Shown one piece after another: positions 25,174 through 32,465 of a stretch of DNA of 41,112 bases (positions are counted from its first letter, which is position 1; every line of letters starts with the position of its first letter). Source of the DNA: Sphaerobacteraceae bacterium (lineage in GTDB: Bacteria > Chloroflexota > Chloroflexia > Thermomicrobiales > Thermomicrobiaceae). The notes below the pieces were generated by a model. It was not told where the DNA came from. It ran no database searches and was given only the letters and a program-made list of their open reading frames with translations. Made by a program: the position numbers and the translations under genes. Location: NCBI GenBank assembly GCA_007695115.1, contig REEK01000094.1, positions 1-41,112 on the forward strand. Reading direction: 5' to 3'.

Positions 25174-26538
25174 CTACTGGTCGGCAGCAGCACGAACGGC
25201 CTCTTCGCTGGAAGCAGAGAACAGCGTTACGGTGTCCCCATCGGTCTGAACGATGTGATAGCGGTCATTTCCAGCATATACGCCGTCAGTTGCCTCATAA
25301 TCGGCCATCGTCTGCAGCAACAGATCTTCGAACACCAGCGCAGCTTCCTCATCGGCCCAGATGTTTCGGGCCACGGCGACCACGTCAGTTCCATCTTCAT
25401 CTTCGTACATGGCGAACCGTGATCCGCGCCAGCTTTCCAGCGCCTCATACGGATCAGCCACGCCATTCTCTTCCAGCATGATCATCAGATCGAAGGTGCC
25501 GACCGTACCAGTGTCGTAGAGCACCCAGCTATCGCCAAGCAGGGAATCCAGATCGGGAAGCTCGACCTCGACCGGCGGCGCGACGGTTCCATCCATGAAC
25601 CCCGACGGGTTCATCACTTGTTGAGTAGATACCGGCGGATCTTCGAGGAATTGATCGATGACGTTCAAATCCCCGGCAAACGCATTGATCATGAACATCG
25701 GGCCCTCGATATACGGGAAAGAGAAGGACTCGACGATATACCGGGGGAGTTCATCGAGCATGGCGCTGGCTTCATCGTCCATTACGGCTTCGAGCAGCTC
25801 ACGCTGGTACTCCACCAGCTGATCACTATCGAGATAGGCCAGCGCATAGAGTTCCTGGGTCAGGACCGCATCGCCCTCGAGCATCGCCAGGAAGGCAAAC
25901 ATGGCATCGTACTCGTCCTCTTCCATCTCCATCATCCGGTCGCCGACGTTGAAGTGCTGATCCTGAAGAGCATGGGTGATCTCGTGCGCCAGAAAGACTT
26001 CTTCCATCGCGCTGAGGTCTTCGCTCTCGGCGACGACGTAGACCGTCTCGTTCTCGAACATATACAGGCCGTAGATGTCCGATGCCTGGACATCGATCAG
26101 CATCTCTTCGAGTTCGATATCACGATCATCGAGCAGTCGGAGAATCCAGTAGAGATCAATCTCTGACTGAGTGATCTCGGTCTCCTCTTCGAGGAGTTCC
26201 AGCAGCTCATCGCGGCTCATGATCTCCACGTTGAGCTCTTCGAGCACCTCCAGCCCGCGAAGTTCGGCCACGTTGGCAGCAACCTCATCGACAAACTCAC
26301 CGAGATCGACGTCGGAATCGGCTTCTTCTGGTTCCGGGGTTACGGTTGGTGTTGGTTCCGGAGTCGGGGTCGGTTCCGGTTCAGGGGTCGGAGTTGGATC
26401 CGGTTCCTGCTCGTCGACAACAGCCGTCGCGGTGGGAGTTGGATCGGCTTGATCGGAATCGTCCGTCGCGTCATCAGCGGTTGTGGTACACGCTGCCAGA
26501 ACGAATAACAGCACCAGGAGTAAACTGACACGTCGCAT
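25174..26538 (-). CDS. Lipoprotein metallopeptidase-like protein (HExxH), copy A
   Basis: 454 residues from the ATG at 26538 (GAGG upstream). The signal peptide ends in lipobox LAAC (Cys17). A long Thr/Pro/Glu repeat linker (about 30-75) separates the anchor from the body. The body has the zinc motif HEITH (185-189) in VFLAHEITHALQDQHF and a downstream Glu (LEGDAV, E221), the gluzincin pattern. The rest is acidic and not recognised. A similar gene lies directly upstream, sharing VFLAHEI-x-HALQDQHF, EGDAV, PPVST-x-QV and LxTMADY. It is probably exposed on the outer face. Targets are unknown. Confidence 0.85.
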   Translation of the reverse strand: MRRVSLLLVLLFVLAACTTTADDATDDSDQADPTPTATAVVDEQEPDPTPTPEPEPTPTPEPTPTVTPEPEEADSDVDLGEFVDEVAANVAELRGLEVLEELNVEIMSRDELLELLEEETEITQSEIDLYWILRLLDDRDIELEEMLIDVQASDIYGLYMFENETVYVVAESEDLSAMEEVFLAHEITHALQDQHFNVGDRMMEMEEDEYDAMFAFLAMLEGDAVLTQELYALAYLDSDQLVEYQRELLEAVMDDEASAMLDELPRYIVESFSFPYIEGPMFMINAFAGDLNVIDQFLEDPPVSTQQVMNPSGFMDGTVAPPVEVELPDLDSLLGDSWVLYDTGTVGTFDLMIMLEENGVADPYEALESWRGSRFAMYEDEDGTDVVAVARNIWADEEAALVFEDLLLQTMADYEATDGVYAGNDRYHIVQTDGDTVTLFSASSEEAVRAAADQ

Positions 26539-26634
26539 CAGGGCCTCTTTCCACGCGATAGACAAGACATGCAGCCTGAGGCGCCGTCTTACGGGTTAGG
26601 TTCCATCGCGCGAAGTATAAGGGGAGGGGGGACC

Positions 26635-26674: not shown

Positions 26675-28063
26675 CTATTGCATATCAGCGGCGTCGAGGA
26701 GTGCATCCGGATCGGTCGATGACATCAGGTTGAGCGTGTCTCCATCCTGAATCACGACGTGGTATCGATCATCAGCCATCCACACGCCATCTTCCTCGTC
26801 GTAGTCGGCCATCGTCTCTAGCAACTGGTCTTCGTAAGCTGCCGCCTGATCTTCGTCTTCCCAGACGGTAGAAACAGCGACCAGAGACTGATCGTCCTCC
26901 GAGATGTAGAACTCGTACCAGTCACCGCTCCAGCCATCGAATGCAACGACCGGATCGGTGGCTTCATTCTCGAACAGAATCATAAACAGCGTGAATGCAC
27001 CGAACGTGCCCTCTTCAGACATCTCCCAGGTGTCGCCCAGTCGATCACCAAGGTCTGGCATTTCGACATCGACGGGATCATCGAGCTCGCCCGCAATGTA
27101 CGCCTGTGAATTGATCACCTGATAGGTGGAGACTGGCGGGTTTTCGATGTATTCGTCCATGTTGTTGAGATCATCCCCGACGACCTGTGACATGAACTCT
27201 GGCCCTGCGGAATACGGGAAGACAAACGTCTCCAGGTAGTAGGACGGGATGTCCTCGATTGCGGCCATCGTTTCTTCATCCTGCTGGGCTGCCATTGCGT
27301 CTTGCTGATACTCCATCTGCTGTTCTTCATCGAGGTACGTCTCAGCGTATTGCTGCTGAGAGATAACGGCGTCGCCTTCGAGCATCGAGCGGAAGGAGAG
27401 GGCCGCATCGCCATCCGGCAGCAGTGATTCGAGCCGGCCGAGATCAAAGTGCTGATCCTGAAGCGCATGGACGATCTCATGAGCGAGGAACACCTCTTCC
27501 ATGGCGCTCAGTTCATCATCGTCGCTCACAACCACGGTCTCGCCGGTCTCCGGATCATAGAATCCGCCAACATCTGCCACCTGCAAGTCGATCAGCATCT
27601 GCTCAACATCTTCATCGGGATCCGGAATAAGGCGGAGCAGCCAGTCACGATCAATTTCGTGCTGCTCGAGCTCGATACTGTCCTCGAGGTAGTCTCGCAG
27701 TTCATCCTGCGTCATAACGATGAGGTCAATGTCTTCGAGCAATTCCAGCCCACGCATCTCGACGACATTTTCCGTGATCGTGTCGACACGTTCGCTCAGA
27801 TCAGCGGTGTCTTCTGTTGCATCATCGTCGGTCGCATCGTCTTCTGGTTCCACTGCATCGTCGTCGTCATCATGTATGGCGTCATCCTCATCGTCCGGAA
27901 CCGGGGTAGCAGTTGGTTCCGGGGTCGGCTCTTCGGCGATCTCCTCAGTAGGAGTCGGCTCGGGTTCGGCCACGTCATCGGTTGCATCATCGTCAGTTGC
28001 CTCGGCACAGGCCGCAATAGCCAGTAGCAGAGTCAGCAAAACGGCAAAACCAATACGTCGCAC
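26675..28063 (-). CDS. Lipoprotein metallopeptidase-like protein (HExxH), copy B
   Basis: 462 residues from the GTG at 28063, which has AGGAGG five bases upstream; the ATG at 28102 is less likely. Lipobox IAAC (Cys19) is followed by an Asp/Glu/Pro/Thr-rich linker (about 20-90). The zinc motif is HEIVH (195-199) and the third ligand candidate is Glu229 (LEGDAV). The body aligns along its length with copy A but differs in the linker and in a Met/Gln-rich segment near 235-265. The pair therefore arose by tandem duplication and diverged, and both zinc motifs are intact. Confidence 0.85.
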   Translation of the reverse strand: MRRIGFAVLLTLLLAIAACAEATDDDATDDVAEPEPTPTEEIAEEPTPEPTATPVPDDEDDAIHDDDDDAVEPEDDATDDDATEDTADLSERVDTITENVVEMRGLELLEDIDLIVMTQDELRDYLEDSIELEQHEIDRDWLLRLIPDPDEDVEQMLIDLQVADVGGFYDPETGETVVVSDDDELSAMEEVFLAHEIVHALQDQHFDLGRLESLLPDGDAALSFRSMLEGDAVISQQQYAETYLDEEQQMEYQQDAMAAQQDEETMAAIEDIPSYYLETFVFPYSAGPEFMSQVVGDDLNNMDEYIENPPVSTYQVINSQAYIAGELDDPVDVEMPDLGDRLGDTWEMSEEGTFGAFTLFMILFENEATDPVVAFDGWSGDWYEFYISEDDQSLVAVSTVWEDEDQAAAYEDQLLETMADYDEEDGVWMADDRYHVVIQDGDTLNLMSSTDPDALLDAADMQ

Positions 28064-28101
28064 AGGCACCTCCTCAGCTCGTTCGCGGTCAGTCAGGAAC
28101 A

Positions 28102-28115
28102 ACTAAATGTTTAGT
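28102..28115. promoter_or_regulatory. Palindrome upstream of lipoprotein copy B
   Basis: ACTAAA-TG-TTTAGT, a perfect inverted repeat 38 bp before the GTG start of the minus-strand gene. It may be an operator. No clear -35/-10 pair was found beside it. Confidence 0.35.
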
Positions 28116-31160: not shown

Positions 31161-31197
31161 GGAACGATCAGGACAACAGTTTGTTCCTGATCGTTCC
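31161..31197. terminator. Long hairpin between convergent genes, overlapping the selenoprotein stop
   Basis: GGAACGATCAGGA (31161-31173) pairs perfectly with 31185-31197; three more pairs continue inside after a one-base bulge. The stop codon of the minus-strand selenoprotein gene (31168-31170) lies inside the stem. No T run follows on either strand. Confidence 0.5.
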
Positions 31198-31911
31198 CAG
31201 ATGCTCGCCTCGTGACCACATCTCCCTGGCACGCTGGAAATCATCGATCGCCTTCTGCCCGGCAAGGTTCAGACCCGCCGTGAACGCATCATCATCCACC
31301 CACCGGAAGCCGTAGAGCTCGGCGTAGAACGGATTCTGACGCAGGCCACTCCGGCGTCGATCGATCGCCGTGAAGTGATAATCGAGCGCAAACCGGATCG
31401 TCGGCGGGTCTGTCCAGTTGGCCCGGAACAGCACCGTATGGGCGGTGTTGAGGATGTAGGTCATGTTCGGCAGTGTTCCGAACGCCCGGTGCGTTGAGCC
31501 CTCCAGATCATCAACCAGGATCTTTCGGCTGACTCCGACGATCTTCTGAAAATCCCGGGCATGCTGGAGCTTCTGCTCGAAGCTCGTGTGGGCAGGATAG
31601 TGCTCCCCGGGATGAGCCTCACGGGTATAGATGAAGACGGATTGCACCCCCCGATCGGCATAGTCTTCGACCATATCATCGAGTGCTGGGCACGCCAGCG
31701 TGCAGTATGGTCAGGTCAGTGAGCCGAACTCGAGAATCGTTATGCCCTGTCTGGTCAGGTCCCGCAGATGAACTGGTTCTCCTGTGTCCAGGTCAGTCAA
31801 CACGGTCTCCGGCGCAGTGGTTCCGATCTTGACGATATCCGGAAATCGAGCAAAATCCTCGACATCGCTCTCTACCGGAAAGTCAGGGGTGTTGTAATCC
31901 TCTTCAGTCAC
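31168..31911 (-). CDS. Deiodinase-like thioredoxin-fold selenoprotein (in-frame TGA = Sec67)
   Basis: Two open frames (31911-31711 and 31674-31168) are in the same frame and joined by one TGA at 31711-31713. Read through, the gene gives 247 residues. The joined sequence is FGSLT-U-PYCTLACP followed by VQSVFIYTREAHPGE. This is the iodothyronine-deiodinase-like pattern (FGSxTU, then YxxEAHP), with Sec exactly at the TGA and a resolving Cys70 (U-x-x-C). Nothing else disrupts the frame. A SECIS-like hairpin lies at 31671-31710. The start is a GTG overlapping the stop of the cupin gene as GTGA. No substrate is known; redox work on halogenated or peroxide compounds is conceivable. A nonsense mutation is the alternative. 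Confidence 0.85.
31671..31710 (-). promoter_or_regulatory. Bacterial SECIS-like hairpin after the TGA
   Basis: Read in the mRNA: right after UGA, CCAUA (31710-31706) pairs with UAUGG (31675-31671). Above an internal loop, GCUGG (31699-31695) pairs with CCAGC (31689-31685) around the loop CGUGC. The apical loop begins 17 nt after the UGA and has G in its second position and GU inside. This fits the general model of bacterial SECIS elements. The fold was done by hand. Confidence 0.6.
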
Positions 31912-32465
31912 GAAACTCGCTCATTCCTTATTGCTGCCAATCTGATTCGGTATCCAAGCACCCCTCCGAGCCGGGCCAGCAGCCGGATGACAAAGTCCGG
32001 GGGGCGTGCCGACACTGAAATGTCCCGATACTCCTTGAAGATCAGCGCCACATATATCCCGCTCCGGACACCTGTGAGGCTTGTTATCTTCCCTTCATCG
32101 ATCAATCTGGCTGTCGCGGAAAGGAACTCCTGGCCGCGTAATCCGGGATCCAGAGAATTCATCACCTCAACAGGCTCCTGCCCGCGCACGTTCAGATCAT
32201 GGACCACTCCGGGTGGTATCTCACATTTGTCACCTGGGCCGACCTCGTAACGGCGGCCAGCAACTGACATTTCGAGAACCCCCGCGTTCACATCATACGT
32301 CTCCGTCTGTGCTGGATGGTAATGCGGCGGGAGCGAGAAGCCAGGCCCGAATCTGGCCCGAGTGATGAGTGGCGCGTGCGGCAACGACTCTGGATCGGAT
32401 GTTTCAAACGAAAATTGCGCGGGAAACACGGGGGCGTAGTCGATTGTGTGGCAGAAGGTGGTCAT
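31908..32465 (-). CDS. Cupin domain protein, translationally coupled to the selenoprotein
   Basis: 185 residues. Cupin motif 1 is perfect (GFSLPPHYHPAQTETYDVNAG: HxH, Glu, Gly); motif 2 is GDKCEIPPGVVHDLN with its His. So a divalent metal site is expected. The C-terminal 60 residues, with a basic hydrophobic segment near the end (FVIRLLARLGGVLGYRIRL), are not part of the usual barrel and may touch the membrane. Its stop TGA overlaps the GTG start of the deiodinase-like gene, so the two products are probably made together. The large histidine kinase ends 60 bp upstream. Confidence 0.88.
   Translation of the reverse strand: MTTFCHTIDYAPVFPAQFSFETSDPESLPHAPLITRARFGPGFSLPPHYHPAQTETYDVNAGVLEMSVAGRRYEVGPGDKCEIPPGVVHDLNVRGQEPVEVMNSLDPGLRGQEFLSATARLIDEGKITSLTGVRSGIYVALIFKEYRDISVSARPPDFVIRLLARLGGVLGYRIRLAAIRNERVS

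Follow-up and report, generated by a model that had tools for sequence, protein, structure and literature searches.

A deiodinase-like selenoprotein gene with an in-frame TGA and a covarying hairpin in a Thermomicrobiaceae bacterium

Introduction

Bacterial deiodinase-like selenoproteins were first reported in 2005 from the Sargasso Sea metagenome, in a study that described a bacterial SECIS, found selenocysteine (Sec) as well as cysteine forms and suggested a redox role (PMC1088965). Reviews of 2022 and 2026 list these proteins as PF00837 members with a UxxC motif (PMC9312934, PMC13188914). Since the family has been described from 2005 onwards and again in later reviews, the gene analysed here belongs to an already known kind, and the first-pass annotation of this DNA was correct in stating that bacterial members exist. 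The gene lies in a 41,112-nucleotide stretch (hereafter the window; contig REEK01000094.1) of a Thermomicrobiaceae assembly. In the literature searched, of which coverage was partial, we found no report of a deiodinase-like selenoprotein in Thermomicrobia.

Results

On the minus strand, positions 31911-31168 form one reading frame, with a sole internal stop (TGA, 31713-31711) and a terminal TGA at 31170-31168. The list of open reading frames breaks it into two entries, 31711-31911 (66 aa, GTG start) and 31168-31674 (168 aa, starting at an internal ATG), with no stop among the intervening codons. The first-pass annotation had described two minus-strand frames in register, joined by a single TGA, and its coordinates, register and peptide all proved right: the joined protein (gene at 31168..31911, 247 residues from a GTG start) carries FGSLT-U67-PY-C70 and then FIYTREAHPGE, the in-frame TGA at 31711..31713 being read as Sec67. 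The open frame exceeds chance, 180 open codons being expected with a probability of ~0.003 in a random frame of the same composition. Automated annotation is likely to miss or split such a gene.

We next placed the protein within its family. As a query it matched PF00837 (T4_deiodinase) at 40.2 bits (gathering cut-off 27), and 19 of 20 family members matched the same profile at E<=0.001. In the tree, the U-x-x-C proteins group into a single supported clade (97/96) whose members all have Sec. The AlphaFold2 model (pLDDT 89.8) predicts a mainly helical C-terminal extension past the thioredoxin-fold core (~residues 171-247; 31171..31401, minus strand), with helices at 169-187, 207-214, 219-233 and 236-246, and a conserved G-x-K-A-V/I-x-x-F stretch runs through this extension in the alignment (A2). 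The query also matches NCBIfam NF038285 (deiodinase_rel) over residues 28-164 (E 6.8e-14), but membership was rejected at 52.1 bits against a cut-off of 250, NF038285 being longer (347 positions). A PF00837 match on another contig of the same genome (C127) was likewise rejected as a second deiodinase, with its lipoprotein-like N-terminus and thioredoxin-like C-x-x-C (NFWAGQCPPC). No homologue of the selenoprotein was found in the phage records searched.

Several homologues depart from the Sec form. Cys stands in the Sec column of L044 and of P0002, a protein from a Mycolicibacterium plasmid, and Ser, Gly, Asp and Ala stand there in L037, L038, L042 and L035 (genomes G038, G013, G347 and G185, respectively). 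SelA is present in the genomes of L037, L038, L042 and L044; the first three also have a strong tRNA-Sec match, and that of L044 is marginal (47.9 bits). The Ser-, Gly-, Asp- and Ala-type proteins may retain the fold without the redox centre. Loss of Sec to non-redox residues instead of the usual Cys is unusual and may deserve more attention. The Gly-type L038 gene (L068:1428-5707) sits between UbiD-type decarboxylase and hydantoinase A genes, on the same strand and tightly packed, which suggests a catabolic operon. On the Mycolicibacterium vanbaalenii plasmid NZ_CP126902.1 (L070:3246-5216), a gene for a Cys-type deiodinase-like protein overlaps one of the carboxymuconolactone decarboxylase family, and a glutaredoxin-domain gene comes next, a set that looks like a redox module. 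One Sec-TGA homologue (L040:1501-2073, G080) is without ~38 core-domain residues, which reflects either decay of this copy or a faulty assembly.

The active site was then compared residue by residue with animal deiodinases. Seven Dio3 residues were tested (S167, T169, U170, Y197, E200, H202 and H219), whose active-site, hydrogen-bond anchor and proton-relay roles are taken from published work (PMC7506546, PMC11592359), and all seven are identical in the query, which has S64, T66, U67, Y95, E98, H100, P101 and H108, that is, SxTU, YxxEAHP and the second His. The substrate side is different. The Dio3 pocket residues W207, D211, Y257, F258, E259 and R260 are not kept: Tyr105, Leu147 and Pro148 stand at W207, Y257 and F258, and D211 is without counterpart. 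Nor does the query keep the long loop D, and its substrate-covering omega loop is 9 residues shorter; R275 of Dio3 could not be aligned. The earlier label of deiodinase-like therefore applies to the fold, the relay residues and the descent but not to thyroid-hormone binding, for which the tested pocket residues are not conserved. The proximal Cys168 and distal Cys239 of Dio3 are replaced by Leu65 and Val127, and the query must therefore be recycled in another way than the animal enzymes. The only cysteines of the query are Cys70 and Cys74. The first-pass annotation had proposed Cys70 (codon at 31702..31704, minus strand) as partner of Sec in a U-x-x-C redox pair, and this candidate resolving cysteine is conserved across the whole subclade, in all 11 UPYC/UPPC homologues.

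The reading that best fits these comparisons is a Sec-dependent reductase with the thioredoxin/peroxiredoxin fold, within the bacterial deiodinase-like family, and with a substrate that is probably other than thyronine. We consider it likely that the product is a deiodinase-like bacterial selenoprotein whose foremost candidate function is that of a soluble Sec-dependent thiol oxidoreductase, or peroxidase-type enzyme, acting on something other than thyronine. In the mechanism that we propose, SelB with Sec-tRNA and the hairpin described below would insert Sec at UGA67; a Ser64-Thr66-Tyr95-Glu98-His100-His108 network would activate the Sec67 selenolate, which would attack an oxidised or halogenated small substrate; Cys70 would resolve the oxidised selenium to give a Sec67/Cys70 selenenylsulfide, and thioredoxin or another thiol would then reduce it.

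A true reductive dehalogenase, in which Sec67 would abstract iodine or bromine from an environmental haloaromatic and protons would come through the His/Glu network, seems to us unlikely but is the first of the alternatives. The full Dio3 relay is kept, including the equivalents of H202 and H219 and the Glu200 anchor, and the His-Pro of EAHP (His100 and Pro101) is invariant across the homologues of alignment A2, even among those without Sec; against this stand the loss of the thyroxine-pocket residues, the shortened omega loop and a neighbourhood without dehalogenation genes. A broader version is somewhat less probable still: a Sec-dependent bacterial dehalogenase that would combine the deiodinase relay with an environmental halogenated substrate and U-x-x-C turnover, and from which Sec-free Ser, Gly and Asp derivatives with binding or structural roles would have arisen repeatedly among related lineages that use Sec.

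It is quite improbable that the protein is an ordinary peroxiredoxin or ResA/TlpA-type thioredoxin that only resembles a deiodinase. With the single query sequence, AhpC-TSA overlaps the deiodinase match at a nearly equal 39.5 bits, and ResA structures come close behind when the AlphaFold2 model is searched with Foldseek. Nevertheless, Dio3 and Dio2 are the top hits in that structural search, and a profile of 20 homologues likewise finds Dio3 (1.1e-21) and then Dio2 (3.6e-16) ahead of any thioredoxin. Moreover, the Dio3 alignment extends over the YxxEAHP...PxHxSxE segment, whereas the ResA matches leave it uncovered.

The joined sequence was aligned with deiodinase-like proteins, as had been advised, and the Sec column reads TGA in the close homologues, in every one of them, and Sec170 in mouse Dio3. 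In alignment A2, TGA occupies the Sec67 codon of the query and of 14 further homologues, at ~29 to 97% identity (L025 and L029, identical in sequence, were counted once). Two TGA-type homologues, at 96% and 79%, come from further Thermomicrobiaceae assemblies. Others stand at 31-47%, among them one in an Acidobacteriota assembly (46%) and one in a SAR202 assembly (41%), and TGA-type homologues also occur in several genomes from the same phylum. Because the TGA recurs in independent assemblies, a base-calling error at 31711-31713 is excluded. Compared with the 79% relative, dN is 0.18 and dS 1.85 upstream of the TGA, and dN 0.12 and dS 1.07 downstream, a dN/dS of ~0.1 on either side that indicates equal purifying selection. 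With the TGA conserved and dS far above dN on both sides, neither a base error nor a decayed gene is an explanation.

A bacterial SECIS is described as a stem-loop that directly follows the UGA and whose small apical loop contains G (PMC1088965). A hairpin of this form, GCUGG-CGUGC-CCAGC (31685..31699, minus strand), is found 11-25 nt past the UGA (11 nt spacer), with G and U in its apical loop, and its conserved pairing and covariation make it a probable bacterial SECIS. All five base pairs are kept in 11 of 11 U-x-x-C homologues and three of them show substitutions on both sides, a count that excludes L039 as well as four more distant relatives, L036, L041, L043 and L045; in these four the five-pair register fails and another register folds. 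The covariation score is 0.578 against a shuffled mean of 0.141 and at most 0.109 for slid versions; paired cells reach 100% in the hairpin register vs 27-53% in slid versions. When each sequence was recoded synonymously, five pairs of five appeared in only 2-18% of trials. Codon choice alone is insufficient for the paired changes, because at some of them the encoded residues differ as well, with Leu...Ala in the window and Met...Ser in L030-L032. Folded alone, the single hairpin sequence is not better than shuffles (z 0.37), so only covariation counts as evidence for it. An Rfam scan of the window gave no match.

We finally searched the source genome (3.68 Mb in 186 contigs, 98.5% complete) for the Sec machinery, on which the first-pass annotation had made its reading depend, and all components are present: SelA (429 bits), SelB (361 bits), SelD (367 bits) and a tRNA-Sec with anticodon TCA (74.7 bits). 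The SelD gene itself has an in-frame TGA (context ACAG-U-ASKLG). SelA was also found in 10 of 10 tested relatives of the same family or order, and the Sec trait is therefore old in the lineage. Genomes with TGA-type homologues have tRNA-Sec and SelA in nearly all cases. Among the others, SelA was not found in G270, a genome not obviously incomplete; neither SelA nor an above-cut-off tRNA-Sec was found in G217, and there was no clear tRNA-Sec in G258 (best 47.3 bits), both of these genomes being incomplete.

By sequence, the evidence that the TGA at codon 67 encodes selenocysteine is strong. A real stop, through pseudogenisation, sequencing error or two separate proteins, is accordingly extremely improbable: the stop itself is all that favours it, together with the second frame's start at the internal ATG (31674), and it is opposed by TGA conservation over Thermomicrobiaceae, SAR202 and Acidobacteriota assemblies, by selection on both sides, by the conserved hairpin and full machinery, and by an N-terminal piece that would finish right before the active-site residue. 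We give as little credit to decoding of UGA67 as another amino acid by suppression or an altered code, for which no support was found: TGA is the terminal stop of 11 of the window's 22 open reading frames of 300 aa or longer, hence there is no general recoding, and a dedicated tRNA-Sec, SelA and SelB are present.

The genomic neighbourhood was considered as a functional lead and rejected, as it is not conserved beyond the genus. Upstream lies a Cupin_2 gene (31908..32465, minus strand; Pfam Cupin_2, 50.3 bits), whose stop and the selenoprotein gene's GTG start overlap in GTGA. The 79% relative (L025) has no gene at this position, and the cupin gene must therefore have been gained or lost inside the genus. 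Elsewhere in the window, 25174-26565 and 26675-28102 (minus strand) are adjacent paralogues with lipoprotein-like N-termini and an HEI(T/V)HALQDQHF motif (HExxH, metalloprotease-like), and neither has a Pfam match.

Discussion

Among the closest known proteins are mouse Dio3 (4TR3) and Dio2 (9H48), with ~20-23% identity to the query. They share with it a thioredoxin/peroxiredoxin-type fold, SxTU, YxxEAHP, the second loop His and an active Sec, as predicted here. The query differs from the animal enzymes in the extra Cys at U+3, in added C-terminal helices and in the fact that no membrane anchor is seen; its probable SECIS is of bacterial type and lies inside the coding sequence, unlike that of Dio3 and Dio2. 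Because the relay is kept and the tested thyroxine-pocket residues are lost, an ancestral deiodinase role becomes testable with a soluble bacterial protein.

ResA/TlpA and AhpC/TSA proteins share the core fold and the position of the active-site residue, but they are without the EAHP...H insertion and have C-x-x-C or a peroxidatic Cys where the query has U-x-x-C.

The query's Thermomicrobiaceae lineage has relatives that, going by isolate names, presumably come from soda-lake sediment. It is in this host lineage that the query differs from the known bacterial deiodinase-like selenoproteins, with which it has in common PF00837, a U-x-x-C Sec and a probable SECIS directly past the UGA; to these it contributes a well-supported case in which the Sec machinery is complete and the probable SECIS covaries.
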